Below the pieces are notes generated by a model. It did no database searches. It was not told the DNA's origin and was given only the letters and a program-made list of their open reading frames with translations. From the NCBI GenBank assembly GCA_037043455.1, contig JAWPHD010005571.1, positions 96,607-160,606 on the forward strand: a DNA stretch of 64,000 nucleotides, written 5' to 3'. This stretch comes from Cyrtodaria siliqua. Taxonomy: Eukaryota > Mollusca > Bivalvia > Adapedonta > Hiatellidae. The position numbers and the translations under genes are program-made. Positions 6,434 to 53,744 of the stretch are shown here, one piece after another. Numbering within the stretch: the first letter of the stretch is position 1; each line of letters opens with the position of its first letter.

Positions 6434-6478
6434 ATGTTAGAAGATGAAGTTAAGAAAGATGTCGAACCTCCTTCAACA
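6434..6478 (+). CDS. module A1 microexon (45 nt, phase 0-0)
   Basis: CCTTTCAG|ATG...ACA|GTAAGT encodes MLEDEVKKDVEPPST. This is the first of eight A-type modules. The exon keeps phase 0 on both sides, so inclusion or skipping never shifts the frame. It is acidic, with a Pro-Pro-Ser end, and is probably disordered linker. The donor is ACA rather than the ACC found in the other copies. No B module lies between it and A2. Confidence 0.72.
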
Positions 6479-8225
6479 GTAAGTTCTTTATGGTCATATT
6501 ATGTACTTGGTAACATAGAGCCGAGTTGTTTATAAAGAAACTGGACACATACAGAGAATACATACATCATTAAACATAATACACGAACATTACTATTTTC
6601 TTTTCAGTTTTCACATTTTACTCGGGAGTATTTTGTGTAATATATAATTAATGTACACATACATGCACTTAAAATAACTATTAAGTGTGCAGTCCTGCAC
6701 TATGTTCAAATGTAAGCCATTCGGAAAAATGAATGAATAAATAGGTCATATTGTGCGCAAAAACTGATGAAAGGTGAAGAAATGAAGTAGTAATTAGAAA
6801 TTTATGTAAATTTATAAAATAAAACTATTTACAAAAGGGATGATATGGTATTAATACAAACTATATATGTAAATCAACAAATGCCCGTCAACGGGTATAT
6901 AAACAAGTAAATATATATAAGAAAATATTATAATGATTTATATAGTTCGATTTCTTTCAGGAAATCTAAAACAAGAATAAAATCTATAGTATCAAATACC
7001 TCTTTCATAGTATTAACATTGTAGTACCTTTGACGCATAGGATAAAAGTCTACACATTACAGTGTGAAGATAGTTTCACCTACCAATCACATGTTTAAAC
7101 TTACTCTGGCCCTTTTCTGGTCTATATTTAATTTAGTTGATTTGAAACAACGGTCTATGTGTAGCATCATGCCATTTAGAAAAAATCGTCATGAATATAA
7201 TTTAAAACATATTATTGTATTGAAATAATGGTAGAAACTGTGCGAGCTACTCTTTGCATTACCATAGGCAAGATTAGTTTAATATGTGTGTGTTCCGTTT
7301 TCCTTCGGTGACTAACATTCATCAATTACATTATTCTTATGAATACAAAAAATTCAGTAAATGTTTTGATAAATTCACACACGCTTTGAAGGTTCGATTC
7401 AATAAATTATTATTAGGTGGAGCGCTGTAGTCTAGTGGTAGAACGTTGGACCCATGATCGAAAAGTCATGGGTTCGATTCCCGTCATTGCCATATGCGTT
7501 GCGTCCCTGAGTAAGACACTTTATCTGCATTTGCTTAGTACTGGTTCTACCCAGGAAGACATCGAGAGTGATTCAAATTAGTTTATAGAGCTTTCGTTAC
7601 AATCGATGTAAAATGAATGTTTAAACTAATAAATTATTTGAGTATGACAACGATCAGAAATTGACGAGAGCGTCACAGAATTTTGAAATGCAGTATCGAT
7701 ACATGTATGTATGGAAGAGTAAGAAATAAAACTGAAACAAAAAGTATACTGCAAGATACTTTTATAACATGTGACTCATAAGCCGTAGGAGAGAGTTGAG
7801 TGTTTAATGTCACCACCATTTCGATAAGTTGTAGTTATACTTGTTAAAACTATGTGTGCATGTATATGAAATATAATGTGCCAGCACATTAATAACGATT
7901 CACAACTGATACATCTAAGAAGGGAACTTATTCGCGCGGAGATCTACACTCACGACTAAAAGCATCGTTTTGAATAACGCTTATATTATTTTGAGACACC
8001 GTAAGATTTTGAGCAGTGTTTTAAGGTACCGAAACTAGAGAGACGTTTGCAGTTATGACCAAACGCGATACACCGTTGTCTCTGTGGATGCTACTTCATA
8101 ATATGTTTCTATCAGCAGTAATATACTACTCTATTCGCTAAAATGTTACGGTACAATAGTGTACGTCTCTTATCTTTTTAAACGTAATTTTTTGATAAAT
8201 TCTAAATAAGACTGATTTCTTTCAG
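6479..8225. other. intron A1-A2, fusion of post-A and post-B intron sequence
   Basis: The left part (to about 7180) matches introns that follow A modules elsewhere. The part from about 7185 (AAAAAATCGTCATGAAT onward, then TTATTCTTATGAATAC) matches introns that follow B modules. A B exon with its flanks therefore seems to have been deleted here, leaving two A modules next to each other. A SINE sits at 7412-7627. Confidence 0.6.
7412..7627 (+). mobile_element. tRNA-derived SINE with 11-bp target-site duplication
   Basis: The head (about 7418-7492) resembles a tRNA gene: an A-box-like TAGTCTAGTGGTAGAAC and a perfect B-box core GGGTTCGATTCCC. A tail containing CCCTGAGTAAGACACTTTAT follows, a landmark of invertebrate SINE bodies. 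AATAAATTATT occurs immediately before (7401-7411) and after (7628-7638), and paralogous introns lack the element, so the insertion boundaries are well defined. Target duplication of this length fits LINE-driven retroposition. Confidence 0.8.
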
Positions 8226-8267
8226 ATGTTAGAAGACAAAGTTAAAGATATCGAGACTCCGCCAACC
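8226..8267 (+). CDS. module A2 microexon (42 nt variant, phase 0-0)
   Basis: TTTCTTTCAG|ATG...ACC|GTAAGT encodes MLEDKVKDIETPPT. It is one codon shorter than the usual A module: one of the two lysine codons after Val has been lost, and the frame is kept. Splice sites are intact. Confidence 0.7.
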
Positions 8268-9566: not shown

Positions 9567-9629
9567 ATGGACACAGCCATTGGACAACTGGGAGATGAGA
9601 GAAAGGATGATGAGGCCGTCGGTGGCACG
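9567..9629 (+). CDS. module B1 microexon (63 nt, phase 0-0)
   Basis: CTCTGTCAG|ATG...ACG|GTACGT. The 21-residue peptide starts MDTAIGQLGDE and ends KDDEAVGGT. It is strongly acidic with a Gly-Gly-Thr end. This is the first of six B modules, whose donors are nearly always ACG|GTACGT, distinct from the ACC|GTAAGT donors of A modules. Glycine replaces the usual Glu at residue 9. Confidence 0.73.
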
Positions 9630-10921: not shown

Positions 10922-10966
10922 ATGTTAGAAGATGGCATTAAGCAAAATATCGAGTATCCTTCAACC
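10922..10966 (+). CDS. module A3 microexon (45 nt, phase 0-0)
   Basis: ATATTTCAG|ATG...ACC|GTAAGT encodes MLEDGIKQNIEYPST. It is more diverged than its neighbours (G for D/E at 5, Q for K, N for D, Y for P), but length, frame and both splice sites are kept. It is followed by a 12.9-kb intron holding the gypsy element. Confidence 0.68.
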
Positions 10967-11964: not shown

Positions 11965-12205
11965 TTAAGTGTTTCCTACCTGTCTGTTGCCAGCTCCCAC
12001 CGGGATCTTGTCAGGATATGAGTTTAACCACTATTTATCAGTCCTGTCGTTAGTCAGCGTCTCGTCAGTATAGCTTCCTACTCGCAGAGCGCGCTCACAT
12101 GTCTGCGGGCGGTCACGTGGCGTCATTAGGTGGGAATCAGCTGGTTCCCCACAAGTCCAGGAACCAGACCGCAAGGTCATATAAACCCCCATCGACAGTC
12201 ACTAC
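11965..12205 (-). repeat. LTR, low-coordinate (3') copy
   Basis: 241 bp matching 23390-23641 over its whole length with few substitutions. The main difference is a ~10-bp GGCGTCATTT repeat unit present twice in the other copy and once here. The close match implies recent insertion relative to the module duplications. Confidence 0.85.
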
Positions 12206-12220
12206 CCTCCCCCTTCTTTA
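12206..12220 (-). other. polypurine tract
   Basis: On the minus strand AAAGAAGGGGGAGGG directly abuts the LTR start, the expected plus-strand primer for an LTR element of this orientation. Confidence 0.75.
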
Positions 12221-14380
12221 TAATAATGGTCCTTCTGCCTGGGGGGGACCCCTCACCGCACTCCTGAACCCAGAGTGTCACTGGTGAGCGCTAACTTCCC
12301 TTTTCGGGCGTTTAGCCCCAACTGTCATGGGCCTCCCCTGGACTTGGATACTACCACATACTGTAAACATTCCACCAAAGCTATGATCCAGGGGGAGCCT
12401 CCCCCAACATTGCCCATAAGTGACCACTTGCCCCGCGCGGCCGCTGAGGCGCCATTACTAATAAAAATAACATCCCTATATAAAATAATAACATACCGTC
12501 AATGATTCCCCTCTACAGATGACCCTGGTGACCAAACTTTAAGATTAATCCTAATAGCCCCTGTTGACCATACCTTAATCCCTACCCGCACTATTTCCCA
12601 TGAACCCTATGACCAAACCGTAACTGGTTTATGAGCTTTATTTGATAATGGTCCCTAACATTATATATTAACACCGGGTTACCATCCTTAACCTTACAAA
12701 TTAATCTAACACTTCTTGTTTAGTATGAAGGTAGAGAGGCAACGCCTTTAACCATGCCTCCCCTTATTCACTATTCGGGGTGCGGAATCGCCCTACTGGG
12801 TAGCAACTCTATAACAACCCCCCACCCCCCCCCCCCTAACCGTCAGGAATCTTACTCCTTGCCCCGAACACCCACCTGCAGGATCACAGCCAGCAGATTC
12901 CCAGGTGGGGAGCCATGGGCATCCCCTACACCCGTCTCGGAGTCACAAGCCTCTACCAGCCTACCAAGGGGAACGGGAACAGGCGCCCGGATCCCCGGAT
13001 GTCCCAGTGGTCTTTCCCTGCTTTTCCCTTCCGCCCTTGAGGACGGTGCCGGGACTTCGGACGGTTCCCGTCCACCGGCACCCGACCTCCAATCAAGTTC
13101 ATCCAGACACCTCAGCCTCCGGTCATACTCATCCGGCCTCCTCAGCCTCCGATCCTCACTCTGCTTGTGTAAGCACTGATTGCCCCGCTCCGAACCCGCA
13201 ACACCAACCCCGTTAGATGCCCGGCCAGAGAGTAGCTTCGCTCTACCCGACGCGGCAGGCTACCTTCATTGGCCGAAGTACTCCCGGATGTCCTCCGCTG
13301 CCTCCTTCCTCGTTTCCTTGGGCGAGCCCTCGGCCTCCTAACCCCTTCGCCTTTTCCGGTCCTGTCCTTTAGGCGGGCTAGACCCTGCGTCCCCTCCCTC
13401 AACTAGGGACGACTCGCTAGTTGAACGACTCGTCAGCAGACTTACTCTCCGACGTCCCGCTAGTCACCGGATGCCGGGCCACCCCCGCACCGGCCTCATC
13501 CACGGATAGCTGGGCCAGGTCCCCTAAACCAGCTATCTCAGGGATGATGGTGTCAGGGTCCAAAGCCAACAGTGCGGCCTCATCCCCTTCCTCTCCTGAC
13601 GACAAATACCCTTCCATTAACAGTTCCGCGACTTGAAGTTGATCCGCCTTCGTGCCACGGTCAACAGCCTCCTGCTCATGGTCCCTTGGACAAGGCAGTA
13701 CCTGCCCTTGATTCCCTGGACAAGACGAGCAGTGGGTAGGTGGCTGTCTCCACTTCCCTCTTGCACAGTCTAGCATCCTGGTGACGCCTGGACGGAGCAC
13801 CCGCTCCCAAAATCCCAGGCCGTCACTTCAGGACAGGCCACCCCACCTCTTGGTGACTGGCTCCCTCCCGGATCCCAGGGTACCCACGGTTCGTCCCCGT
13901 TTGCCCATCGGTCGTGCTCATCCCAGGGCCTCCAAGGGTCTTCCTCATCTGCCCCTGTATCCGGCCCGTAAAGCATATACCCTGTATCCGGTTCACCCCA
14001 TTTGCCTCAAACTTCTACCTCCGGTTCTACTACCAACCCTCTAGGACCGCTCGACCTTTCCAGTTTGACTATCACTTGGCGGTTACAGCTGCTTTGTTCA
14101 AAAGCCTCGCTCCCCTGCACCTCTTGCGGATCCCGCGGAGTGATCAATTCCGCATCCCAGGAACCCTTTCGCTGACATCCCGTCGCCGCACAGTAGTTGA
14201 CATTCCCACCTTGGTGGTCGCCCGCGACCCCTTGGTGCACCCCCGCAACTCCCTGCGCTCCAGACGCCGCCTACAAAACCGCTTCATCCACATCTCGGAT
14301 GAAACACCCCCAGTTCCTATCCGCCCTGGCGCAGTACTCACAACCCCCACATGGCAGTTCCCCTAGCTCAACTCCGGCAT
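12221..14380 (-). pseudogene. degraded pol remainder of the gypsy element
   Basis: GC-rich, with only broken minus-strand frames. Fragments such as LPCGGCEYCARADRNWGCF (14271-14453 frame) and VNYCAATGC (14007-14240 frame) resemble the Cys-containing linker regions of molluscan gypsy pol proteins from memory. No RT (YxDD), RNase H or integrase (HHCC, DDE) motif was found. The stretch near 13417-13800 is acidic (SSGEEGDEAALLALDPD). Deletion of most of pol is the simplest reading. Plus-strand frames here (12754-13216, 13914-14366) are shadows of the GC-rich composition. Confidence 0.5.
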
Positions 14381-15568
14381 TTAAACGCGTTGCAATATCC
14401 CGGTACCATTGGTATCCAAGACACTGGATCCGCAGTCCCGCGTTTCTTGCCACACACTGCCCCTGGGGTTCACTAACCTCAACAACCAGTCAAACTCGTC
14501 TGGTCCATTCTGACCACATACGGTCGTCCTAGAAGGTAGTACCGATACTGCCAGGTCAATGGCCCCATGGCCAGTACTCAGTCCGAGGACTGGACCGTCA
14601 ATTATCAATGTACCCTCACCCACATTAATATTGGTTGCTCCCAGGTGAAATAACGTATCGCAGCCCAGTAACATATCTTCCGCGATAGGAGCTACATACA
14701 CAGTCTCCTTATACAGCTTCTCGCCCATCTTTAAAGTTACCGGACCTATTAGAAACCCGTGCATTGACAACTCCTGACCTGGTGTCAGGAGTTTAACATC
14801 CTTAATAAATTTGGGAGGTACCTCCATAGACCAATAAAGCCTATCTGCCATAATGGTAACCTCCGCCCCTGTGTCCACCAACGCATCCACTTTATGTCCG
14901 TCTACCTGGACCTCAACAATTGACTGGGATGTAGAACCCAACTGGCACACCTTAACCGTCTCCCCTCCATCCGTACCCTGGCCTTCTACTTCCGGCCCTT
15001 CTGGACTACTGGTCCCCTGAGTCCCCGTCTGGAAATCACTTGCCACGGATGGACATGCGATCAACCCCAGATCCCCCGGATCTACCCTGCCCATATGTTC
15101 AGGTATTTCTACTCCCTCGTTCTCCGCCCTCTCGGAAAAACTTATTTTACCCTGATTTGGTGATGACACAACCCCTAGCGCCAGCCCCGTCCCTGGCTGC
15201 ACGCTGCTTACTACCACTAACTGGCTCCCCGTCTGAGCCCCTTGACCCTCTACTAAGGGGTCAACCAACACAATTTCTTCCCGGCGGATCTGCACCTGCC
15301 GGACCCCCACTAAACCATTTAATTCAGGCATTCCCGGCAATTCTGTGGACTGGCGAGCACTCTTTTGACTCTCTTCCTGGTCACAATTTAAGGGCTTTGC
15401 CCCTGATGACACTGCCTCTTTACTGGTCAATGTCTCCCTTGTCTGTCCTATTCGTCTCCGGATCGAGGTTCGTCCCACGCCCTCGACCCTGTCCCGTTTC
15501 TCAACATGCCCCCTGTGTGGACACTCCTGCCTGAAATGCCCAGCCTTCCCACACCCAAAACATGCCAA
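14381..15568 (-). CDS. gypsy zinc knuckle and aspartic protease frame
   Basis: A 395-codon frame. Residues 3-16 are a CCHC zinc knuckle (CFGCGKAGHFRQEC), which binds nucleic acid in gag nucleocapsids. After a ~200-residue variable linker the retropepsin fold begins: VDALVDTGAEVTIM with the catalytic DTGA at about 232-235, and the second hallmark MLLGCDTLFHLGA around 299-311. Known: the protease acts as a homodimer to cut Gag and Pol. The frame stops soon after the protease. It is offset from the gag frame upstream, so a frameshift or mutation separates them. The start given is simply the first ATG after the break. Confidence 0.82.
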   Translation of the reverse strand: MACFGCGKAGHFRQECPHRGHVEKRDRVEGVGRTSIRRRIGQTRETLTSKEAVSSGAKPLNCDQEESQKSARQSTELPGMPELNGLVGVRQVQIRREEIVLVDPLVEGQGAQTGSQLVVVSSVQPGTGLALGVVSSPNQGKISFSERAENEGVEIPEHMGRVDPGDLGLIACPSVASDFQTGTQGTSSPEGPEVEGQGTDGGETVKVCQLGSTSQSIVEVQVDGHKVDALVDTGAEVTIMADRLYWSMEVPPKFIKDVKLLTPGQELSMHGFLIGPVTLKMGEKLYKETVYVAPIAEDMLLGCDTLFHLGATNINVGEGTLIIDGPVLGLSTGHGAIDLAVSVLPSRTTVCGQNGPDEFDWLLRLVNPRGSVWQETRDCGSSVLDTNGTGILQRV

Positions 15569-15713
15569 TCTCGGTGATTGCCTCTGATATTGGGGTGGGC
15601 TTTCAGGTTGCCACTGGGTTGAGGTCCATTGTCCCTTGTCTGCCTGCTGGCCCCCACTAAGAACTTCATCGACAAAGTTTCGAACTTTTGTTCTAATTTA
15701 ACGAGAACGTCAT

Positions 15714-16835
15714 CTACCCTACTGGCCTCCCGGGGTTTGTGCTCCTGGACCGCCCAAACAACCACAGGTCATCCATATCATACTCCAGCTCCCGCTTGAG
15801 TTCTTGACGGACCTTCCCATACACAGCCTGAGTCATGTGTTGGTGCCATCTCACCCTGTCTATAGCGGTTTCAATGCGGTCCGGCTGCTCGAGCCCGACC
15901 CTATGGCAAGCTTCACGGTCTGCCAGTCCCTGACAGATCCGTACCACCGCCTGTTGGGTCGAGTAAGTAATTGGCAGACCCACAAATGCTTTATTCGCCA
16001 ATGTTAACACCCTGTCAGCCCAGTCTTCCAATGACTCATCTGGGTCCTGCACAGCCTGCTGTAATCTGGCTTGTGCAGTAGCCGGAAGTTCTTTGGAACC
16101 GAACCTGCTTTCTAGCTGTGCTAGCACTTGCCTGTTCGACATAGATCTGCCGACATTCCGTTCCCTAATAAGAGCACAATACTCTGCAGCCTTTCCTGTC
16201 AAAGACCAACACAGACAATCTAGGCACTGGGCTTCGGACCACCCCTTCATGCTAGCATAACTGGTGAAACGCTGTTTGAACACCAGCCATTGTGTCTTTC
16301 CATCATACATGAGGGCCTTGGGTAGGGACTTGATGGGGTCCCATTCCCTAGATCCGCCATGTTTATAAACAGACGACATTCCCCGCTTGTATACCAGGTG
16401 CTTCCGGTCAACCCCAGACAAACTATCGTCCGTGCTCGAGTCGCTTCGCGATGGGGAGCGACGCTTCTTCCCAATTCGTGATGGTGAACGTCCCGTCCTA
16501 CCACCCCGCGATGGAAAGCGTGCTGCTCTACCACTCTTCTTACCCCTAGCTTTCTCATCTTCGGAGTTTTCATCGTCACCGTCCTCACTTGATGATGGGG
16601 AGGACGGGGGAGAGGCATACCGCAAGTGTCTCGCCTTTTTAGAGGCCTTTGGGACCGCTCCTGCACTTTTTTGTGGACATGCTTTTAGTGATGCCCCTGT
16701 TGCTACTACCGGACTGGACTCGACCGTTGCCACAACACTCTCCACATTGGCAGCTGATTGGGCCGGGTGTCCCGCTTCTACCTTCAAACCCACAAGGTCG
16801 CCCATCATTTTAAGCATATATTTTATTTGCTCCAA
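15714..16835 (-). CDS. gypsy gag (capsid) frame
   Basis: A 373-codon frame. It has a basic/Ser-rich N-terminal region (RGGRTGRSPSRIGKKRR), then a capsid-like core containing ALMYDGKTQWLVFKQRFTSY, LCWSLTGKAAEYCALI and DPDESLEDWADRVLTLANKA, the hallmark layout of Ty3/gypsy Gag. It assembles the virus-like particle in the cytoplasm. Reading continues upstream of the ATG toward 16960 in another frame (KPSMFGATGQIG), with a one-base slip in a C run near 16850. The 3' end breaks before the zinc knuckle frame. Lesions on both sides suggest it is no longer functional. Confidence 0.82.
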   Translation of the reverse strand: MEQIKYMLKMMGDLVGLKVEAGHPAQSAANVESVVATVESSPVVATGASLKACPQKSAGAVPKASKKARHLRYASPPSSPSSSEDGDDENSEDEKARGKKSGRAARFPSRGGRTGRSPSRIGKKRRSPSRSDSSTDDSLSGVDRKHLVYKRGMSSVYKHGGSREWDPIKSLPKALMYDGKTQWLVFKQRFTSYASMKGWSEAQCLDCLCWSLTGKAAEYCALIRERNVGRSMSNRQVLAQLESRFGSKELPATAQARLQQAVQDPDESLEDWADRVLTLANKAFVGLPITYSTQQAVVRICQGLADREACHRVGLEQPDRIETAIDRVRWHQHMTQAVYGKVRQELKRELEYDMDDLWLFGRSRSTNPGRPVG

Positions 16836-17684
16836 ATCCGTGAGACTGGGGGGTCCCTATTTGCCCCGTAGCCCCAAACATTGAAGGCTTAATATCCTCA
16901 TCCCCGGCTTCAAAAACGGAATATCTGAGGGAGGGCCATGTCCAACTTTCGGTACCTAATCAAAAATCAAGGGACATAATTCAATTAAGGGCAAATGATT
17001 GTATCGTTAAAGTTACGCTCCTTATTTGTTATCCTGTGTTGATAATCTTTAAGTGCCGGTCTATAAAACGCAGCGATGCGTGACATGTATATAGCCAGTT
17101 AATTAATAAATCGATATTGATCGAGTTTTATTGCCCTGCCTCGGGGGTATTTTAAATTAGAGGAATTATTCTAGTTTAAGTTTTGCTGAACTAATAACAT
17201 AATCATTTAAATGTAAGATGCTTGCTAATTAAGCCACTCTTAAATTGTAAATATTGTTATATAAATTGAATTAAGTAAAATAGGTAAAATTAAACATGAT
17301 ACGCGATCTGCATATATTTTCATGTGTAAACAACATTGCGGTTTAATGACTTTTTTATTTTTGCAATATAAAAATGATAATAAGTGACTTTTCTTGTAAG
17401 TTTAAGAGTTTGACGATGTTAAAACCAAAAACACAACATAAGTTCAGTATTTATTTATTTATTTTCGAATCAATACATCCTTCAAATTGCTATAAATACA
17501 TTAAAATGATATCTTATTCAAAACACTAAATAAATACATATCAATCATACATTTATTGCTAAACATTGAGTGTTATATGTCTATTGAGAATAAGAGGTAT
17601 CGTCTTTGTTTAATTGTATGACCATACATACATAATTCATACTAATAAATGAACGAATGTTACACTACCTACAACATTTCACAC

Positions 17685-17690
17685 TTTATT
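17685..17690 (-). promoter_or_regulatory. putative polyadenylation signal of chromodomain gene
   Basis: AATAAA on the minus strand about 20 nt after the TGA at 17711-17713. It implies a very short 3' UTR, but the position fits. Confidence 0.5.
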
Positions 17691-17710
17691 CCTATCCATG
17701 AACATTGTCA

Positions 17711-18871
17711 TCACTTAGTGGATATGTGCTGCTTAAGCATTTCTATTAATTTTTCCTTTTTTCTAACTTTTGTTTTAACTCCTAATTCGCTCAATTTTTG
17801 TTTAAGTTCTTGTCCGGTAAGAGGTTCAAAATTATCACTTTCCTCCCGAAAATAAGTGTCAATTTCTCTGCTCTCGCGTTCAATTTTTTGTCGTTTCATT
17901 TCGCGTTTATGAGATATTTCGCTTGTCCAGTAATGTTCATTATGTTTTGTATACGCTCGTTTCTTTCGCGTTACGTCGTTGCTGATGCCAATCTCAATTC
18001 TTTTCCGAACAAGAAGCGTGTCAACTGTTGGGTCTTGTTTGTTTGATTTGGTTTGGTGGATCTTTTTAACAATGTCATTAGCTTTTTCTACCCCTTGACC
18101 TGAGTACATGGATAGGCTACCATATCGACTCACAAAAAAGGGTACGTGGAACAAAACGTGAAGATACGGCGTTATGTTTTTTGGCTGATAGCCTTCCCGT
18201 TTAAGATGACCTATTTCTAGAAAGTCTACCATGAATAATTTGATTTGAGCATGGACTTCTTTTTCATCAAATTCCCTTCTGGTCTTGTCGGTGATGAGCT
18301 CATAGATTGTTTTGAATTTTTTCCACAGAGAGACGACGTGCGTAATTGTATCATTATGTAGACAAAACAATAGTTTATCTGGAAGCAGACAAAGAATCTT
18401 TTTCTTGTCATTTCCAGTCAGTGACGTCCATTCTAATTCACCGGATTTTGTGATCCATGTCTTGAACGTCACACCACACGATTGTATTGCCTTAATAAGA
18501 ATTTGTAAATTATCTGTCGCTTGCCCAGTCAATTTACCGTATTCGTCTTTTGATTTAGCATCATTTATAATATTCCTTAACAGCACGTCAGTCACTCTAT
18601 CAAAGTCTTCTAAATTAAACAGAACACATTTTTCACTTCCAAATACATAACGGTACACGTCTAAGTCTACATAAACGGCACATTTTGGATTTGTGGATTT
18701 TAGTCTGGTCTGTATGGCTCTCTCAAAAGAAGTAGCGAATTCAGATAGTCTGGTGTCGCAGATATGGGGTTCTATGAAACTCGATATAACAGAAGTCGGT
18801 AGATTTCTCTCTGGTTCCCATGTGCAGTCATATGTTCGGTAATCTTGCCATTTTACCAAGTATTCATGTCC
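17711..18871 (-). CDS. chromodomain-SAP protein, exon 2
   Basis: The exon starts after TTTATTTTAG on the minus strand and reads GHEYLVKWQDYRTYDCTWEP, the second half of a chromodomain including the aromatic and WEP residues. Joined in phase 0 to exon 1 it gives a 441-aa protein. Residues ~90-400 are unrecognised; conspicuous stretches are ILCLLPDKLLFCLHNDTIT (about 214-232), TPYLHVLFHVPFF (about 289-301) and SGQGVEKAND (about 312-321), which I recall loosely from uncharacterised, possibly transposon-related proteins of cnidarians and molluscs. A basic region follows, then a SAP motif at about 406-436 (LTGQELKQKLSELGVKTKV), a DNA-binding fold. A nuclear, chromatin- and DNA-associated role is inferred. 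The 386 codons have no internal stop, so the gene appears intact. The stop is TGA at 17711-17713. Confidence 0.82.
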   Translation of the reverse strand, partial: GHEYLVKWQDYRTYDCTWEPERNLPTSVISSFIEPHICDTRLSEFATSFERAIQTRLKSTNPKCAVYVDLDVYRYVFGSEKCVLFNLEDFDRVTDVLLRNIINDAKSKDEYGKLTGQATDNLQILIKAIQSCGVTFKTWITKSGELEWTSLTGNDKKKILCLLPDKLLFCLHNDTITHVVSLWKKFKTIYELITDKTRREFDEKEVHAQIKLFMVDFLEIGHLKREGYQPKNITPYLHVLFHVPFFVSRYGSLSMYSGQGVEKANDIVKKIHQTKSNKQDPTVDTLLVRKRIEIGISNDVTRKKRAYTKHNEHYWTSEISHKREMKRQKIERESREIDTYFREESDNFEPLTGQELKQKLSELGVKTKVRKKEKLIEMLKQHISTK

Positions 18872-21288
18872 CTAAAATAAAAGAAATGGCGAAATAAATC
18901 ATTTGTTCGAGTAATGTAAAAGATAATGGGGATTATCAAAAATGTAGCCCTATTTTATTTTGAGTATTAAAAGTACATGAATATTGTTTTGTATAATATT
19001 GTGTGTACTGAAGTTATTCAGTAACAAAACTGTCCCTTTCTGCAAAGCAATTAAGTTATTAACTATCAGAAACATATAAACACAGAGATAAGGTACTCGG
19101 GATTTTCTATCGAGATCACGATATAGCCAAAAAATCGATTTTCTTGCGTAATATCATCTTGATAATGATCCGTGTATTGATAGAAAATCTAAGCGAAGTC
19201 TTATATGTCCCACAAATCGAGCAATTTCTCCTTTTGTCACCATGTTTTCAACTCTATTCAATTATAGTACTTTAATGTTTACCCTTTCCCTCATATACAC
19301 GCTTTCCGACGCCTCTCCAGTAGACATATTTTTGAAAACGGTCCTTGAACATAAATCTATTTGTAAAAATATTGTGGCAAAAATTTTCATAACGAGTAAT
19401 TTATCCTTTTGCCATGTTAAATATCCTACATAAAACTTATATCTTCCATAACCGATATCAGCATTACTGACTTCAGATTAAATTGTTCTAATGTTTGTGG
19501 ATTTAAATGATCTTTTTCTTATTTCTTCATGTGAAACGAAATATTGCGGCTTCTCTTTGCATCAAACATCCGTCTTGTTTCATTATTGTAACGGTTTGGA
19601 AAATTGCAAATAAAGATAAAGTTACAAACTGCAGATATAGTAAATGTATATCTTCACTTATTGAAAGCGGTAGATAAAGGACATCTCAAGGTAGTACTGA
19701 ATTATATCATAGTAATTATGATTAGCACAATCAATAGTTGTGACAAACAGATGGCTTAATAAAATTAAACTTATTGTTATTATTTAAAGAAATTATCACT
19801 TTAAGGCAATTATCACCTTAGTTCGTTTATTACCTGTGCCTTAATACCAATCAGTGGGGTTTTGGTCTTCTCTACATTTTCAATCAGAACAATTTTGTAT
19901 ACGCTTTGTTTTATTATGGTTTTGGGTCTAGATCAAACACGTACAGAAGGGAAATGATTTATGTTTTATAAGGGTATCGAATAACCTGATCAGAGCCCTC
20001 TGTTCTGCATACACAAGCAATATGGATTCAGATCAGAGTGCTCATTTACCACATATATATTCTACGCAATCAGTATAGACTCGGATCAGAGGGCTCATCT
20101 ATCACATATATATTATTATTAACCATAACATTTGTGAAACAGACTTCTATATAAGTGCATAATGTTCGTAACAGTAAGTTAAAAGAATATTAAATCTGTT
20201 AACGAAGACCCCGGACCGACTATTTTAAATAATACATCTGCGTATTTAGTAATTCCGGTCTACTCTCATTCTCATTCTCCTCTTACCCTATTTTAGCGAA
20301 GTTCAAATCATAGCAGTTTACCCCCCGAAACAACTGATTTTTTTCTTTTTCTTTTTAAATGAACATGAAATTATGAATTTATTTGTTTGTACTACAAGAT
20401 GCCCATATATGTATACGTAAATAAAACCCTTTCCCACATACAGCAAATATTCAATTATTATTCTTTCATTTACAAAGATTTAAGCTACGTTGGGACACAA
20501 ACTCCAAAAGATTTCACCATAAAACAAGAAGAATGCGTGCATTTCATAAATTTGCTTCTGAATAAAATAACATAAAAACGTAAATCTTAGAAATAAAACC
20601 TATGACTGAAAAAATATTATTTTTAAAAAAGTATACACTGTTTTAAAGATATAAGTCACAGATTCTATATGCATGATATTAGATTGATACCATATAGTAT
20701 TATTTATATTATATATGGATCTGGGATTTATATATTTAAAATTAACGCGCTCTAATATTGCCTACATAATATGTACAACATATTAAATGAATCATCATAT
20801 AGGAAGCAATTGGCTTTTTATTAATTAAAGTAATCTATATCTAATAGGAATTAAACAAAACATAGAACAAAATCCGAACCGCCAAATATATATGTCAATC
20901 TCGATTAGAAAATAATACAGAAAGAACACGCAGACAGACGCAATAACCTTATCACAAAACATATATATTTTTACCTTTCATTAAAGACAATAAACGTTTA
21001 ATGAAATATTAAACCACTTTAAATTTACAGTTCATTTATAATTGAATACACACATATCAATGAATAATTTACAATAGGCCAAATAGTTTTGATGAAGTGT
21101 AATCGGCATAAAAATTGGAAACCCTGAAATACATGTTAAAGTACCATAGCCTCTCGATACTGGAAATTAAATAAATAAATTCAAGTTATTTCTCTTCGAT
21201 ATCTAGGTTCATACAGTAACACAGCCGATTGTACCAAATCAATTTGAAAGCAAAGAAGAAATATTCTAATAAATAAGTGTATACTTAC
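18872..21288 (-). other. intron of the chromodomain-SAP gene
   Basis: 2.4 kb, minus-strand GTAAGT at 21288 to TTTTAG at 18872. Both sites match consensus and join in phase 0 in the middle of the chromodomain. It is AT-rich and contains a short direct repeat near 20029-20135. Open frames at 19242-19433 and 20387-20575 have no support. Confidence 0.75.
20029..20135. repeat. short tandem duplication, about 52 bp x 2
   Basis: CAGATCAGAGTGCTCAT and CGGATCAGAGGGCTCAT, each followed by (T/C)ACCACATATATATT-like sequence, lie about 52 bp apart; a third partial copy (GATCAGAGCCCTCTG) precedes them near 19990. Non-coding. Confidence 0.55.
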
Positions 21289-21453
21289 ATCCTGATTTGT
21301 GTCTTTTCTTTTCCAGATTAATCTCTCTACGTAGAACGTTTCTTCTAACACTGGCTTTTTAATAATTGAATATGTTTTGCGTAATGATAACGATTCACCT
21401 TCACTTAATAATTTATAATCAATCCTGCATCGGTCTCTTAAAGAAGAAGCCAT
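21289..21453 (-). CDS. chromodomain-SAP protein, exon 1
   Basis: The first ATG in frame (21453) follows an open TTG-initiated extension of five codons, so 55 codons are counted from MASSLRDRCRIDYKL. The exon ends KDTNQD|GTAAGT. Residues ~40-55 (FYVERLIWKRKDTNQ) are the opening strand of a chromodomain (pattern YxVErIxxkR), completed by exon 2. Known chromodomains read methyl-lysine on histones or tether retroelement integrases. The residues before it are not recognised. No promoter motif could be identified in the 1.1 kb upstream. Confidence 0.8.
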
Positions 21454-23881: not shown

Positions 23882-23944
23882 ACTGACACAGATATTGGAC
23901 AACTGGAAGATGAGAGCAACGATACTGAGGGCGCCGGTGGCACG
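23882..23944 (+). CDS. module B2 microexon (63 nt, phase 0-0)
   Basis: CCTCTGGCAG|ACT...ACG|GTACGT. The peptide begins TDTDIGQLEDES and ends TEGAGGT. Unlike most modules the first codon is ACT, not ATG. It shares the GGC-GCC (GAGG) ending with B6 at 53673, so these two are a sub-lineage. The open frame extends past the donor but ends soon after. Confidence 0.72.
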
Positions 23945-24664
23945 GTACGTACTTTACAACATAATTATTGGGATCTTGCTTTCTATGATAAGTCTACATT
24001 TTGGTAACATCTTGAAGTACACGTACAACTGAATGACTATTTATATAAAACGATTTATCTCATAAGTGATCTATATTTATAACTCCGCACTTTGAAAATA
24101 TCCTACATTCTGATTGGCTGCATATATAAATCTGTATTATTGTTTATTCCGTCACAAATCTAGACATGACCGATATACTAAGCATAAATTGATTCACAGC
24201 TTAGAATTAGACTGAGAATTAAAAAAGATCGCCATGAACAATGAAATAAAACATCTCATTGTATTGAAATAATGGTAGAAACAGGACGAGCTACCCTTTG
24301 CACGGCCAAATGCCAGGTTAGCGTATGTGATGACGCGTCTTCCGTTTTTCGTCGGTCACCAACGTTCATCCGTTACCTGATTATTATGAATATAAAAACT
24401 TAATTAAATGATTTAAGAACTTCACACACATTTTGATTTGATAGTTTGATTCAATAACGAGCTGAAATTAGTGCGCGCGTCATAAAATATTTGCCTTTGA
24501 GTATGGATGAAAAGAGTAAGAAATAAAGTTGAAACAATCAGTATAGTATAGGATAATTGTGTAACCTGTGGCTTATAAGCCATTGGAGTTTGCTGGGTGT
24601 TTAATGTCATTTCGATTTGTTTTATTTTCTTGTTAAATTCTAAATAAGACTGATTGTCTTTCAA
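23945..24664. other. intron B2-A4*
   Basis: A 720-bp copy of the B-to-A intron, shorter than others through deletions. No separate feature is seen. Confidence 0.55.
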
Positions 24665-24706
24665 ATGTTAGAAGACGACTATACATGTATCGAGCCTCCG
24701 CCAATC
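24665..24706 (+). pseudogene. module A4*, A-type microexon with destroyed 3' splice site
   Basis: The expected TCTTTCAG|ATG reads TCTTTCAAATG here, so the AG is lost. The coding part is still open, 42 nt, MLEDDYTCIEPPPI, and the donor is GTAAGC. The centre (YTC in place of VKKD) is strongly altered. It is probably skipped in mature RNA. Because modules are symmetric, skipping leaves the frame intact, which would relax selection on it. Confidence 0.72.
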
Positions 24707-25890
24707 GTAAGCTCTTTACAGTCATTAAGGAAACTGCATAACTACTCATTGTTAATAAAGAAATCGGACATATAGAGAGAATACGTACATTATTAAACAT
24801 GAACCATTCTTTTATTTACAGCTTTCACATTTTACTCATGAATCATTTGTGTAACTATATCTATCCTGTATATAGATACAATTACATACATACCTAAAAT
24901 AACTATAAAATAAAAGGTCTTCACTATGTTCAAATATAAAGCCATTATGAGAAACGTCATAGTTTCACCTACAAATCAAATGTCGGAACTTATTACGTCC
25001 CTTTTCATGTCACTATCATGTGTTTTAATACAATTCATCGAAATTCACTGTAACAATAATTTTAAACAATGGTCTATAGGCTACATCATGATAACCTGAT
25101 TTCACAACGTCTTAGTACGATATTTTCTATTTGTTATTGATAGTTCGATCTGTTTATTGCAGATATGTTCAAAGTTTAACTATAAACAGCAGTTCATAAA
25201 AACGCATGTATATTCAGATCCAATTATTGTCATATGTAATGTTTTTAGGTCACCATTCTTTTTATATAATGTACCTCCAACACAGTATAGAAAGACTTTC
25301 GATTAAAACTGATAACCTAGCTTTATACTTTGAGTTATTGTATTATATAATTAAATGTACAACATAGATCGTTAAATCTAAGGAAAGTAAGGAAAGAGAA
25401 ATAAACTGAGAAATCAATACTTAATCAATTAGTTCAAATGTTTTTGTTTTATTTAATATTGAAGTAACACATATGCATTATACTATACATGTCACGTCAT
25501 TTATTTTCGTTGTATTTCTAGTTATACTTGTAAACAATATATGTACATGTGTATGAAATATCATGTGCCATCACATGCATAACGATTTACAACTAATACA
25601 TCTAAGAAGAGAACGTATTCGCCCGGAGATCTACGCTCACGACTGAAACAAAGCATCGTTTTAAATGATTATTTATATTGAGCAGTGTTTAACGCTTACC
25701 GAAATTAGAGAGACAGTTGCAAGAGTGACCAAAAGCGATATACCGTGTTTTCGATAGTTTCTAGCTTCATTATATGTTTCTATAAGCAGTAATAGACTAC
25801 ATTATTCTCCGAAATTTTATATACGTCACGAATCTTTTTAAACATAATGTATTGATTAACGCTAAATAACATTGATTGAATGTCTTTCAG
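24707..25890. other. intron A4*-A5
   Basis: Joins post-A intron sequence to a post-B type end with no B module between, as in 6479-8225. No independent element is recognised. Confidence 0.5.
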
Positions 25891-25935
25891 ATGTTAGAAG
25901 ATGACGTTAAGAAAGATATCGAGCTTCTGTCAACC
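25891..25935 (+). CDS. module A5 microexon (45 nt, phase 0-0)
   Basis: TGTCTTTCAG|ATG...ACC|GTAAGT encodes MLEDDVKKDIELLST. Pro-Pro is replaced by Leu-Leu. The 97-codon open frame starting here runs past the donor and is not real coding beyond 25935. Confidence 0.72.
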
Positions 25936-27146: not shown

Positions 27147-27209
27147 ATGGACACAGACATTAGACAAATGGAATATGAGAGAAAGGATGATGAGGGAGTC
27201 GGTGACGAG
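27147..27209 (+). CDS. module B3 microexon (63 nt, phase 0-0, altered donor)
   Basis: CTCCGGCAG|ATG...GAG|GTAGTA. The peptide begins MDTDIRQMEYER and ends EGVGDE. The usual GGCACG|GTACGT has become GACGAG|GTAGTA, changing the last residues and weakening the donor, so splicing efficiency is uncertain. Confidence 0.62.
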
Positions 27210-28686: not shown

Positions 28687-28731
28687 ATGTTGGGAGATGA
28701 AGTTAAGAAATATATCAAACCTCTGTCAACC
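28687..28731 (+). CDS. module A6 microexon (45 nt, phase 0-0)
   Basis: TGTCTTTCAG|ATG...ACC|GTAAGT encodes MLGDEVKKYIKPLST. It has less acidic character (G for E at 3, Y for D at 9, K for E at 11) but intact frame and splice sites. Confidence 0.7.
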
Positions 28732-29922
28732 GTAAGTTATTTATAGTCATAAGTACACTACATAACACAGTATTTATTGGTAGCATAGAGACTACTAATT
28801 GTTATAAAGAAACCGGACGCATACGGGGCACACATACATTATCCAACATAATACACGAACTTTATTATTTTCTTTACAACTTTCACCTTTTACTCATGAA
28901 TACTTTGTGTAACAATATATATGATATATATAGATACAATTAGTGTACACATACCTAAAACAACTATAAGGTATATGGCCTGCACCATATTTCTAATGTA
29001 AAGTCATTCGTAAAAAACGTCTGTGAGGGCGAACATAGTTTCACCTTCAAATCGTATGTTTAAACGTATTATGTCAATTTTCTTGTCACTATTAGTTGCC
29101 GAAGTAAGATTCATCGGTTGAAACATTATTGGTCCGTGGGAAACATCTTGATACTTAGACTTTCGATAGACTGGCGACGTTCAATAATGCTACAAAATGT
29201 TTTCAAGCTTACCCCGTTCATAAAGTGCAGAGACTACCTTGTCAACTTAATTGTTTTAAATGCAACGATCTGATTGGATGATTTGAATTGAAATATGACA
29301 TTGAATAGAATATGGCCGATATAGTAAGCAAGATTCTATTCACAGCTTAGAACTAGAATTAAAAAATCGCCATGAAGATAATTTAAAAGACATTATTGTA
29401 TTAAAATAATGGTAAAAACTGTACAAAACAGGCCAGATTAGCTGATGTGATGCCGCGTTTTCCGTTTTCCGTCGGTTCCCAATGTTCATCCGTCACCTGA
29501 TTCGTATGAATACAAAAACTTAAATAAATGATGTAAGAACCTCACACGCAATTTGATTTGATAATTTGATTCAACATTGGCGCGTTCGTCACAAAATGTT
29601 TGCCATTCAGTATCGATGAAAGTAGGTATAAAATAGTAAGAAAAGTTGAAACAAACACAATGACTATAGTATAGGATACTTGTATAACCTGCGGCTCACA
29701 CGCATTTTGATTTGATGTATATATACTTGCACATGAATAACGAATACATCTATGAATAGAAATTATTCGGGCGGAGATTTACACTCGCGACTGAAACAAA
29801 TATGTTTCTATAAGCTGTAATAGACTACATTATTAGGCAAAATTACGCCATTGTATCAAGGTCACTAATCTTCTTAAACCTATTTTATCGTTAAATACTA
29901 AATAAAATTGGATGCTTTTCAG
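28732..29922. other. intron A6-A7
   Basis: Post-A intron sequence to about 29160, then post-B type sequence from about 29330. A third instance of adjacent A modules with the B module lost. Nothing else is seen. Confidence 0.5.
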
Positions 29923-29967
29923 ATGTTAGAAGATGACGTTAAGAAAGAAGTTGAGCCTCCTTCAACC
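29923..29967 (+). CDS. module A7 microexon (45 nt, phase 0-0)
   Basis: GATGCTTTTCAG|ATG...ACC|GTAAGT encodes MLEDDVKKEVEPPST, close to the consensus. The 95-codon frame running past the donor is incidental. Confidence 0.73.
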
Positions 29968-32055: not shown

Positions 32056-32118
32056 ATGGACACACACACTGGACAAATGGAAGATAAGAGAAAGGATGAT
32101 GAGACCGTCGGTGGCACG
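32056..32118 (+). CDS. module B4 microexon (63 nt, phase 0-0)
   Basis: CTCTGTCAG|ATG...ACG|GTACGT. The peptide begins MDTHTGQMEDKR and ends DETVGGT. His-Thr replaces the usual acidic/Ile pair. It opens the duplicated block whose second copy starts at B5 (40145). Confidence 0.72.
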
Positions 32119-38714: not shown

Positions 38715-38759
38715 ATGTTAGAAGATGACGCTAAGAAAGATGTCGAGCCTCTGTCAACC
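38715..38759 (+). CDS. module A8 microexon (45 nt, phase 0-0)
   Basis: GATGCCTTTCAG|ATG...ACC|GTAAGT encodes MLEDDAKKDVEPLST. It has close intron homology with A7, consistent with A7-B4 and A8-B5 being copies of one block. Confidence 0.73.
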
Positions 38760-40144: not shown

Positions 40145-40207
40145 ATGGACACAGAAATTGGACAACTGGAAGATGAGAGAAAGGATGATGAGGCCGTCGG
40201 TGGCACG
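40145..40207 (+). CDS. module B5 microexon (63 nt, phase 0-0)
   Basis: CCTCTGTCAG|ATG...ACG|GTACGT. The peptide begins MDTEIGQLEDER and ends DEAVGGT, the most consensus-like B module. It is followed by a 13.5-kb intron containing the DIRS element and the second RT block. Confidence 0.75.
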
Positions 40208-43506: not shown

Positions 43507-44400
43507 ATTCATTAAAAAACTCAATTATGTCATTCAATAATAAGGCTTGATTGAACCGTTATTCCTTTCCCGTTATAATTGGGGGACAAATTAATGTAAT
43601 TTGCTGTGGCAAAATTCTACCGGCCAAGGGTTTGGAATGTCTCATCGGTAATGCGGTAAATGGATTATCTCCCCCTGGCCATGGCTTCACTGGGTTACAC
43701 TGGTGATCAACCGGCTGTCGAGTGTCCTTATCGCATTGGATCTATTTTAGTCACCGTCGTATGACTGGATTATCTCACCTGACCAACGGCTTTACCAATG
43801 GTGATCATCCTGGCTGTGGAAGGTGTTTCAGTCTATCTAATTCATAAATTTCATCCTAAAAAATTGTGATGACATAATTAGAGATTAGGGTGTTGCCCGG
43901 ATCTATTGTGCATAACCCGTGTACTCTCTAATTTTTGGAGCTTGAAGGATGAAAATTAGTAGCATTTATTATATATGGCAATAGCAAATTATGGCAATGC
44001 AAAATGATAGAAACAGCATATGGCAATAGCATATGATGGCAATGCAAATGATGGCAATAGCATATGATGGCAATACAAATGATGGCAATAGCATATGATG
44101 GCAATGCAAATGATGGCAATAGCATATGATGGCAATACAAATGATGGCAATATCATATGATGGCAATGCAAATGATGGCAATATATACATGTAGCAAATG
44201 TTGGCAGAGAGAGCAAGTGATGAGACATTCCGACCTTTTGGTTGGACATAATTACACAAAGCTGCTGTGGCCAGATTTTCCACAAATTAATATCATGCAT
44301 ATAAAAGAGTGAAAACTGACGGGTGTGTTTTTTATCTTTTATTCACATATATTGGGAGTACGTCGTCAAATAATATATTTATATAAATAATTTTATATAA
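43507..44400. other. 3' part of the DIRS insertion, non-coding
   Basis: No recombinase motif was found. A stretch of diverged repeats (GGATTATCTC..., TGGTGATCAACCGGCTGT and variants near 43660-43810) precedes the 43970-44185 tandem array. The end against intron homology is blurred by a duplicated TTATATAAATAA motif (44378-44403). Confidence 0.5.
43970..44185. repeat. tandem repeat, ~31-bp unit of two 15-16-bp halves
   Basis: Alternating ATGGCAATAGCATATG and ATGGCAATGCAAATG halves, about seven double units, with small changes. All minus-strand frames stay open through it, creating spurious 70-104-codon frames. Confidence 0.8.
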
Positions 44401-50465: not shown

Positions 50466-51405
50466 TTAATTTTTGACAGAATGGAAGTTTCTTGCTGTAT
50501 GTATGCATATATTACGCTCAAAAAGTACTGGTATAGTGTTTACATGCTGAACAAAATGTTTTTCATAAGTAACTAAATTGTAACTAAATTGTACATACGT
50601 ATGAACATTGTATATACATTTTCGTACAATTGCTTTTTGATTGTTTGTGGATAAAATTGAATTGAATTGGGTTTTTAAAGCGCACCAACACGTGAAAGGT
50701 TATATGGCGCTGAACAGGAATGAACATGCCAGGCTCATCCTCCATGTACATGGAGATAAAATATGGAGAATGGCCCTAGAACCTTCTCACCTGCAGAGAA
50801 TATCATATGACTCATCCAAGATTATTGGAAAATTCTAAAGGTTCTATAAAAATTCTAAAGATTTTATGATCTTCTATGAGGAATCATATGACTGTCAAGA
50901 TAATTTAAAAATAACTTGTTTATCTTACTGGAATATTCTGTTCTATGACAGTATAAATATAGCCTTTTGGGGGTTGTTGTATGGTTTCAGTATTCAGTAT
51001 TTCAGCTGCGACACAGCAATAGGTCATATTGTGCGCACAAACTGTAAATTATTGGATGCTATGAATTAAAAATTAAAAAATATTGTGCTGATCTATAATG
51101 AAAGTGATGTTGGACATTTGAAATATTAAGAATAAATAAAACAGAAAAGATTTGAAGTGAAATTCGATTAAAAGGACAATTGACATCTTTGATTAAAGGG
51201 ACACTTGACAATTCAGACAATTCAAATTAGACACTTGCAATTACTTAATTCGTATATCGGATTTTCATGAAATAGTGGATTCATTTTATGTGTTTTCTGT
51301 AAGTGAATATTTTTCATTGTAGTATTCGAATAAACTTCTGATTATATTATAAAAATAGTTGTTGCTGGTTTTACTTCCTTGCTTGTTACATTTTATCCGT
51401 AACAG
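50466..51405. other. sequence replacing the expected A module of the last block
   Basis: After the duplicated block, an A module would be expected as at 38715. Instead there is ~940 bp whose right part matches the 30170-30890 repeat. At 51406 the sequence resumes as a post-A intron (GTTGTTTATAAATAACTCGG), so the A exon itself is missing. Short frames at 50641-50838 and 50866-51069 have no support. Confidence 0.5.
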
Positions 51406-53672
51406 TTGTTTATAAATAACTCGGACACATACTGAGAATACATACATTTTTTAACATAATACGCGGACATTAGTACAGCTTTAACATTTTATTCAGGACT
51501 AGTTTGTGTAACCATATCTAGCATATATACAGATAAAACTAGTGTACACATATCTAAAACAACTACATGGTATACGGATTGAACTATGTTCAAAGTTAAA
51601 GCCTATTCGAAAAAACGTTTGTGAGTGCATAGTTTCATAGTTTCACCTACAAATCGTATGTTTAAACGTATTCCGTCCTTTTTCCTGTCACTATTAGTTG
51701 CTGATATAAGATTCATCGACTAAAACATTTTATTTTAAAGCCATATTCTCCTGTTTACTAGTAACCTACAATATACTACCCTAAATGATATATATTTGAA
51801 CAAGATGAGAACGCTCACACTATCGCCTACTGATGACATAGTACTGTTGTTCACGTAACTACTATCTATGGGTAACATCATGAAATTAGGCTTTAGATAT
51901 ATATTTTATGTTTTATTTATATTTCGATCTCAGATTTGCAGTATAATATCAAAGTTTAACTATAAACATTTCATAAAAACTCATATATATTCTTATAAAA
52001 TGATTTGAATATGTATTGGTATTACCTCCAACTTGAAGACTTTCGATTAGGAAATATAGCATAGCTTTAAACTTGAATGTATTGTATTATATAATTACAA
52101 ACTATATCTGTAACTATAAGGAGGGAAGAAACAGAAATAAAATGAGAATATTTAATAAGTTAGTTCAAATAACTGGCTTATATACAGATCTCCGTATTTC
52201 AGGATATTGCCAAAGTTTAACTAAAACCATTTCATAAAAAACGCACATCAAATTATTTGAATATGAAGTGTTTTACGTCACACTTCGTTGCATATACCAC
52301 TTACAAGACTTTCGATTCGGACTGATAAAACAACTTTAAACTTTGAGTTATTGTATTGTATAATTGCAACCTATATCTTTAAAGATAAGGAAAGGAAGTA
52401 AACAGAAACTAATGAGAATATATAATAAGTTAGTGGAAATGGCTGTTTATTATTTAATGTTGAAGTAACACATAGGCATTATACTCGACATGAAAAGTCA
52501 TTCAGTTGCTCGAAGGCTGCAGATTCTTATATGGGTTTTGTGTTTGTCTATGGTTAGCATACGGTGAATAATGTAGTTGACGATAAGCATGCATTACAAC
52601 TTCAATTCCTGGTGAACTCGTCTAAAAAAACTTGAATGGTATAAACACATATTTTGCAAATGTTCAAAGAATACCGTTTTACTTGCTGAAATGACGTGTT
52701 CGTAGATCAGTCTACTGAAGTGAAGCATGCCGTAATTATATGTATATTCGCAACGAAACGTTCATTAGCCTCTGTAGCGCAGTTGGTTCAGGCGTCGTGT
52801 TAGTGCAGGGAAAGTCAGGGTTCAAACCTGCTGATTTACTTTTTTTTCTTAATTTTCGTCATTATTATAGTTTTTATTATTGCAAATGATAATGTAGCAA
52901 TGAACAGTTCCTTTACATTTTTCACTTTGATAACGCAATCTTATAATACAACATGGTAGCAGTGAACAGTTTATATGTGCTGTAATGCACACGCTAACGC
53001 ATACGTATCCCTTAGATGTGAACAATTGTATTTCTGTTCTGATGTGTACTTCTAGCACGTCGTGTTACAAGAGTGAATTGTAATCAATATGTAAGGCATG
53101 TTAAGGTATTTGAACAGAGAGAAGCGAGCTCACCAACCTCGATTCAAAAGGTTTTGTAGGAAAAACTGATGGTAAAAATCGGGAAGAAGTATCTGGCAAG
53201 AACGAACGGTCGTGGCTTGTTTATGTCTCCCTGACAACATAGTTTTTTCAATATTGTTTTAACACCCGTGACTTGATTTATTATTATGTTAAATGTTTGT
53301 TTCCAGTTCCTACCCAGACATATGTTATTTTTGCTGGGCATCTATTTTACGCTTGCGTAAAACCTTGCGATTTTTCTTTTCAAGGCACGCAGTTTATTTC
53401 AAGCAATTTTCCTTCGTTCTTATATACAGTATGTATGAACATTTGTAAACTATTGAACAAATAACATGTGTAGCACAAGTTAATTTCAGGATATACTATA
53501 TTGATACACGTGTCTAGTCTAGCCAAGTTTTAAAACAATATCAGTGGTTATAATTTCGAAATGAAACTCAAATCTGTGTTTGTTGACTATTCTAATATTA
53601 GCTATTGTAAGTATCGTTAAAACTGATGTTTATCACAATATATCATATATATTACAATTATTCCTCTGGCAG
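51406..53672. other. post-A intron leading to B6, with internal ~280-bp duplication
   Basis: Intron homology with internal tandem duplication: 51900-52170 and 52180-52450 share CAAAGTTTAACTA, CATTTCATAAAAA, GACTTTCGATT and GAGTTATTGTATT in order. It contains a tRNA-like sequence at 52768. The part from 53400 gives the empty-site sequence used to define the gypsy insertion. Confidence 0.55.
52768..52848 (+). tRNA. tRNA-like pseudogene or SINE head
   Basis: Starts GCCTCTGTAGCGCAGTTGG, like the 5' half of an elongator tRNA-Met, and has a B-box GGGTTCAAACC at about 52818-52828, followed by an 8-T run (possible Pol III stop). The anticodon arm cannot be folded and the 3' acceptor side does not pair with the 5' side, so this is not a functional tRNA. 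Confidence 0.5.
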
Positions 53673-53744
53673 ACGGACATAGACATTGAACAACTGGAAC
53701 AACTGGAAGATGAGAGCGACGAAAATGAGGGCGCCGGTGATACG
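53673..53744 (+). CDS. module B6 microexon (72 nt variant, phase 0-0)
   Basis: CCTCTGGCAG|ACG...ACG|GTACGT. The peptide begins TDIDIEQLEQLEDES and ends EGAGDT. It is 24 codons rather than 21 because CAACTGGAA is tandemly duplicated in frame (EQLEQLE). It is related to B2 by its first codon and GAG ending. Last module of the array. Confidence 0.72.

Follow-up and report, generated by a model that had tools for sequence, protein, structure and literature searches.

A tandemly duplicated array of small phase-0 candidate exons of two types in a possible TRADD-N-like gene of the bivalve Cyrtodaria siliqua

The micro-exon genes (MEGs) of schistosomes contain many very small symmetric exons that are open to alternative splicing, and the duplication of one exon of MEG-3 is said to be linked to a mobile element (PMC4350168). 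In the fast skeletal troponin T gene, TNNT3, the 5-prime exons are alternatively spliced and the majority of them belong to one phase class (PMC2447309); their inclusion alters the acidic content of the variable region of the protein (PMC8559874). In Crassostrea, TRADD-N proteins form large lineage-specific expansions, with the domain situated where a constant part meets a variable one, and the Branchiostoma members of this family have a low-complexity linker after TRADD-N (PMC8195603). Here, we analyzed a 64,000-nucleotide (nt) stretch of the genome of Cyrtodaria siliqua (assembly GCA_037043455.1, contig JAWPHD010005571.1, positions 96,607-160,606 of the forward strand), hereafter referred to as the window, which carries an array of fourteen small candidate exons, or modules, of two types, A and B. 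The array lies between exons that resemble a TRADD-N domain and exons that resemble a part of the retinoblastoma pocket.

The array gene shares very small symmetric exons with the schistosome MEGs, all 14 modules being symmetric. However, the coding region of a MEG consists mostly of micro-exons, and MEGs have signal peptides and are apparently restricted to platyhelminths (PMC4350168), whereas the array gene has 233 of 667 modelled residues in the array (the gene being incomplete in the window), has two repeated types of small exon and has other exons that are apparently globular. It resembles troponin T in its consecutive small exons of one phase class; in TNNT3 these exons (4-8, plus a foetal one) code for a region close to the N-terminus, while here 14 A-B-type copies are found between two domains. 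The passages of PMC8195603 on TRADD-N proteins of bivalves and other invertebrates describe no exon array, and in its main text exon, splic and retinoblastoma have 0 occurrences. The exons that follow the array resemble the first part of pocket A (RB_A, PF01858) of the retinoblastoma (RB) family. The upstream exons look unlike an RB N-terminus. The principle of the array is already known from the MEGs (PMC4350168) and from fast troponin T (PMC2447309, PMC8559874), contrary to a preliminary description of this DNA, made from its letters, which knew of no described gene with this design. No report of a two-type A-B array within a possible TRADD-N-like gene was found in the excerpts of the literature on small symmetric exons, micro-exon genes, tandem exon duplication, TRADD, troponin T and retinoblastoma.

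The array spans positions 6434-53744 of the window on the plus strand. The A type, of 42-45 nt, has eight members and the B type, of 63-72 nt, has six; they follow one another as A A B A B A4 A B A A B A B B (Table 1). A string scan of the window for the exact donor of each type found six A and five B donors on the plus strand and 0 on the minus strand. Profiles of A and B were made from these 11 exact-donor copies, each extended by 20 nt on its 5' side and 15 nt on its 3' side. They found eight A sites (E values from 6.5e-26 to 6.3e-14) and six B sites (2.7e-32 to 6.9e-21). Every one of these sites is on the plus strand, and they include A1, A4 and B3, which were absent from profile building; the best matches outside the array had E values of 1.1 (A) and 1.0 (B). 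Each module would add 14-24 residues, and the array would code for 247 residues with all modules, or 233 without A4. The coordinates, order and lengths of the modules and the 233-residue total all agree with the preliminary description, which had further called the modules acidic microexons. The net charge is -2 to -11 in 13 of the 14 modules, while A6, at +1, is not acidic. A microexon is usually shorter than the 63-72 nt of the B modules.

Every module is open, has a length divisible by 3 and is in phase 0 on both sides, so that gain, loss or skipping leaves the frame intact, and the earlier proposal that any subset keeps the frame is borne out. Changes of exonic length among the modules are of 3 and 9 nt. 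In frame +1, stops are found in 7/8 A and 1/6 B modules, and in frame +2 in 7/8 A and 6/6 B modules, A4 being read one base further on in these counts. Splice sites were scored with consensus frequencies and ranked against 3706 GT and 3147 AG sites. With the exception of A4 and B3, the donors lie at or above the 96.6th percentile; with the exception of A4, the acceptors range from the 71.5th percentile (A3, which is usable and has a poor pyrimidine tract) to the 99.3rd. The donor scores are 3.5 for B3 (89.2nd percentile), 5.0 for A4 and at least 6.0 for the remaining 12 modules. Twelve modules are usable, B3 has a weak donor (GAG/GTAGTA, the slash marking the exon end), and A4 is dead, its acceptor being CAA, with no AG. 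Thus, the thirteen usable modules counted previously are twelve plus B3 with its weak donor, and the CAG acceptor assigned to every module does not extend to A4. The type-specific donors (ACC/GTAAGT in A and ACG/GTACGT in B) are exact in six of the eight A modules, A1 having ACA/GTAAGT and A4 ATC/GTAAGC, and in five of the six B modules, the other being B3. These donors are the product of common descent within each type, and per se they are no evidence for separate regulation. At thresholds derived from the array itself, candidate exons of 42-72 nt that are open in phase 0 number 16 on the plus strand, including 12 array members, and three of the four others fall inside a long terminal repeat (LTR) element; the minus strand has 12. 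Single sites of such quality are not rare, and the significance of the array therefore rests on repetition.

The modules are embedded in long duplicated intron-exon-intron units. As reference unit we took the 2696 nt that start 230 nt 5' of A2 and stop some 230 nt short of A3, with A at position 231 and B at position 1572. This unit maps piecewise and in order along the array, where nine unit remnants were placed (Table 1). A sensitive profile search found no extra A or B within the gaps of the units that lack one of them. As read from this map, the array grew from a unit of about 2.7 kb with two exons, A and B, which was duplicated in tandem to at least nine copies. The A-A and B-B neighbours are found because a plain A-B alternation has lost three B and one A, and these modules could vanish, and A4 could die, harmlessly because the frame is unaffected.

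The longest match between units is that of the A7-B4 and A8-B5 introns including the B modules, with 83.4% identity over 1391 columns; the A parts of these introns have 77.5% over 716 columns, and shorter stretches elsewhere reach 85.7%. The introns after B4 and B5 have three common collinear blocks with 84-88% identity. These would be expected if one large duplication copied the unit plus earlier insertions, which may have been the case, the alternative being independent insertion of the same repeats. On the intron trees, A7 groups with A8 (support 1.00) and B4 with B5 (0.985). The absence of B from three units need not reflect three independent events: A1, A4 and A6 form a group in the intron tree (support 0.82), and after the gap units 1 and 6 pick up again at almost identical reference positions, 1844 and 1843. 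Copying of a unit that already lacked B may have produced a higher-order repeat of the form A-A-B. Other units also break at 1828-1843. Apart from the LTR pair (92.4%), no self-match of at least 150 columns exceeds 88.2%. Since the units have diverged, recent copy-number variation is unlikely for this haplotype, and the copy-number-variable linker suggested earlier appears instead as an old expansion with losses and decay. A collapsed assembly at the array is conceivable.

The two types are probably diverged copies of one duplicated exon. When aligned without gaps from the donor, the last 42 nt of A and B have 43.9% identity, compared with 25.3% after column shuffling (P = 0.0002) and 30.3% after codon-block shuffling (P = 0.0064), and register 0 was the best among 25 registers tried. 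This comparison used six A modules (A2 and A4, with a 3-nt gap, were omitted) and five B modules (B3, with an altered donor, was omitted). Intron positions +7 to +17 added little (P = 0.044). In the protein register, LEDDVKKD of A lies opposite LEDERKDD of B, and B starts with about six additional residues.

The AG is retained in 13 of the 14 acceptors and the GT in all 14 donors, on intron trees with 2.24 (A) and 1.09 (B) substitutions per site. On these flanking-intron trees, the AG/GT columns have one change in A and none in B, whereas random intron columns lead one to expect 4.8 and 2.7 changes (P = 0.041 for A, 0.062 for B and 0.0035 jointly). Exon columns also change less than intron columns, with 0.89 versus 1.20 in A (P = 0.023) and 0.49 versus 0.68 in B (P = 0.031). 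The mean pairwise identity is 0.795 in the A exons, versus 0.607-0.661 upstream, and 0.826 in the B exons, versus 0.730-0.765 upstream, and gaps are fewer in the module exons than in the upstream intron. The downstream intron, with 0.698-0.813, is nearer to the exon values, and codon third positions are not clearly freer in the modules. Overall, the modules look maintained as splice units.

The flanking exons, named e-1 and e1-e3 upstream and t1-t3 downstream of the array, were predicted by eye (Table 1). The phase-0 donor at 4835 and the phase-0 acceptor at 54745 fit the phase-0 array. For e1, the best AlphaFold2 (AF2) model has a predicted local distance difference test (pLDDT) score of 74.9, and the TRADD structure 1f3v (1f3v_A) tops, modestly, both the Foldseek list and the VIA re-alignment. 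Exon e2 had no TRADD match in the Pfam search and its own model is poor (pLDDT 49.6). The match of t1-t3 to RB_A covers profile positions 18-101 of 196, and a local alignment of t1-t3 with RB1 has 13 identities in 52 positions, the stretch RVKDxGxIF being common to both. A search of NCBIfam with the tail, e1 and e2 had no match up to E 1, and no Pfam family accounts for the array (only match, E 0.19). The arrangement put forward earlier, an array between TRADD-N-like domains and a helical tail, is supported, with a TRADD-N resemblance that is modest and below the Pfam cutoff. The gene apparently begins outside the window, and pocket B, for a retinoblastoma pocket protein, would be expected beyond the window end. 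A fusion of TRADD-N and pocket A is possible.

Table 1 Features of the array and its flanks in the window. Reference positions are those of the 2696-nt unit.
Feature	Coordinates	Strand	Description	Basis
A1	6434..6478	+	module	profile, frame, splice-site scoring
A2	8226..8267	+	module	profile, frame, splice-site scoring
B1	9567..9629	+	module	profile, frame, splice-site scoring
A3	10922..10966	+	module, acceptor 71.5th percentile	profile, frame, splice-site scoring
B2	23882..23944	+	module	profile, frame, splice-site scoring
A4	24665..24706	+	module, acceptor CAA, unspliceable here	profile, alignment, splice-site scoring
A5	25891..25935	+	module	profile, frame, splice-site scoring
B3	27147..27209	+	module, weak donor GAG/GTAGTA	profile, frame, splice-site scoring
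A6	28687..28731	+	module	profile, frame, splice-site scoring
A7	29923..29967	+	module	profile, frame, splice-site scoring
B4	32056..32118	+	module	profile, frame, splice-site scoring
A8	38715..38759	+	module	profile, frame, splice-site scoring
B5	40145..40207	+	module	profile, frame, splice-site scoring
B6	53673..53744	+	module, 9 nt longer than other B	profile, frame, alignment, splice-site scoring
Unit 1			A1, jump from reference 611 to 1844, no B	
Unit 1, remnant 3' of missing B	7174..7405	+		maps to reference 1844-2075; B at 1572 absent
Unit 2			A2 B1	
Unit 3			A3, LTR element, B2	
Unit 4			A4, jump from reference 1066 to 2279, no B	
Unit 4, with A4, then jump past B region	24623..25667	+		reference 190-1066, then 2279-2418
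Unit 5			A5 B3	
Unit 6			A6, jump from reference 653 to 1843, no B	
Unit 6, remnant 3' of missing B	29357..29694	+		maps to reference 1843-1905 and 1933-2224
Unit 7			A7 B4	
Unit 8			A8 B5	
Unit 9			intron from reference 402 onward, no A, B6	
Unit 9, intron remnant, A missing	51474..52512	+		pieces of reference 402-1058; A at 231 absent
e-1	977..1045	+	exon, phase 1 in and out	sites, compatible phase
e1	1384..1797	+	exon, TRADD-N-like, phase 1-1	Pfam, AF2 model, PDB structure match
e2	2090..2431	+	exon, phase 1-1, possible second TRADD-N-like domain	23% identity to e1
e3	4672..4835	+	exon, phase 1 in, 0 out	sites, phase
t1	54745..54842	+	exon, phase 0 in, 2 out	sites, phase
t2	55238..55319	+	exon, acceptor 50th percentile	sites, phase
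t3	59127..59261	+	exon	sites, phase; Pfam RB_A with t1-t2

We consider it fairly probable that the window carries one plus-strand multi-exon gene, which would code for one or two TRADD-N-like domains, a mostly acidic, low-complexity linker made by the exon array, and a helical, maybe partial pocket-A-like region. The linker would be encoded by 12 usable phase-0 exons and one weak one, derived from at least nine tandem A-B pairs, and the flanking exons would join the array in one mRNA. The modules could then act as in-frame units of length and charge, some constitutive and some skipped, which would tune the spacing and charge between the two domains, and the array would be able to shrink or grow without a frame break.

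Several results weigh against this reading. The ratio of non-synonymous to synonymous differences (pN/pS) was tested against neutral sets simulated at three transition ratios, and the range of P reflects the ratio assumed. It is 0.57 for seven A modules (P = 0.047-0.24) and 0.63 for eight (P = 0.078-0.26), and 2.12 for the six B modules, where 94-98% of neutral values are lower. Sets free of stops arise under neutral simulation in 12-41% of cases for A (0.12-0.34 for eight A) and 26-39% for B, and both full sets would be stop-free by chance in about 3-13%. Constraint on the peptide is thus unproven. Codon selection was tried as a proof of coding, and neither pN/pS nor freedom from stops provided it; positive selection on B is not called, the sites being too few. 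In the flanks, the acceptors of e2 (75th percentile), e3 (78th) and t2 (50th) are weak. The Pfam matches are below their cutoffs, both for e1 with TRADD-like_N (PF20694; E 0.011, 15.9 bits, cutoff 23.7), which drops to E 0.075 in a longer model, and for t1-t3 with RB_A (E 1.8e-4, 21.9 bits, cutoff 25). A PDB sequence search with e1 gave no TRADD chain among the four matches listed, and one with the tail, up to E 10, gave no retinoblastoma chain and only a ribosomal protein (E 0.29). Protein searches gave no homologue for the 667-residue model (up to E 1, with the 7992 most word-sharing candidates scored), nor, up to E 10, for the domain exons (863 candidates) or the array end and tail (59); relevant organisms may be poorly represented in the database, and no conclusion is drawn from these searches.

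A serious alternative, for which the chances are a little short of even, is that all spliceable modules are constitutive: the linker would be repetitive and invariant, with up to 233 residues, would have grown by tandem exon duplication and would have no combinatorial use. The donors of 12 modules are at the top percentiles of the GT sites, the sequence demands no skipping, and the weak and dead sites resemble decay and not regulation. However, exons of 42-45 nt are often skipped, being small, and the symmetric phase renders skipping harmless. Alternative splicing of the array is indeed possible. In its fullest form, proposed by the preliminary description, combinatorial splicing would yield many linker lengths and charges from one gene; all subsets are in frame and the schistosome MEGs and troponin T offer precedents, but the introns, which reach 13.5 kb and in some cases hold retroelements, could equally be neutral, and we regard this proposal as tentative.

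It is improbable that the array is a decaying, mostly unspliced relic, in which former exons within duplicated introns would be skipped in most or all transcripts. A dead A4, a weak B3, the three B and one A that are missing, and a pN/pS that is not clearly non-neutral are what such a relic would leave, but the AG and GT dinucleotides are kept beyond expectation and the exon columns are slower than those of the introns. We likewise think it unlikely that there are two genes, a TRADD-N-like one upstream and a pocket-A-like one downstream, with the array in only one of them: introns of 12.9 and 13.5 kb within the array would suit a boundary, but both sets of exons are on the same strand and their facing phase-0 sites fit the array. 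Most doubtful is the far-reaching view that a TRADD-N-like immune or cell-death adaptor is fused to a pocket-A-like region through 13 symmetric exons that would serve as a combinatorial dial of linker length and charge, giving many spacer isoforms, with A and B separately regulated via their donors.

If the modules are spliced, duplication of symmetric exons would here have lengthened a linker on a large scale and in a regular manner, within a possible immunity gene, and one could ask directly whether such arrays are kept for length, charge or isoform variety. The history of the array is still readable: nine units are recognizable, four modules are missing, one is dead and another is weak. The TRADD-N/pocket-A fusion would be of separate interest if confirmed.

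The regions of the array and its flanks contain other elements. Reading through the donors of A5 (25876-26166) and A7 (29902-30192) gives 77 and 75 open codons, the next longest of the 14 being 33; these open reading frames (ORFs) may be due to chance in homologous introns. The A3-B2 intron holds an LTR retroelement (11967-23641) with ORFs on the minus strand and direct repeats that are 92.4% identical over 250 columns; its Pfam matches are gag/PNMA-like and aspartyl protease, above cutoffs, and a zinc knuckle, below, and a chromo-domain ORF is found at 17711-18871. The A1-A2 intron has an Rfam tRNA match (7421-7492, 42.1 bits), possibly a tRNA-derived repeat, and the B4-A8 intron has an Rfam SECIS_1 match on the minus strand (33862-33922, 38.4 bits, cutoff 35). 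In the B5-B6 intron, the segment 40463-43506 contains a reverse-transcriptase-like ORF (RVT_1, E 1.6e-6, 28.4 bits, under the cutoff of 29.6), which is preceded by a 364-amino acid ORF with no Pfam match, and a tandem repeat with a 31-nt unit in 6.9 copies lies at 43971-44183. A pair of dispersed repeats, 79% identical, is located at 2491-3035 in the e2-e3 intron and at 62434-62969 near the window end. An imperfect long ACT trinucleotide tract is found at 61750-62029, 3' of the last predicted exon.

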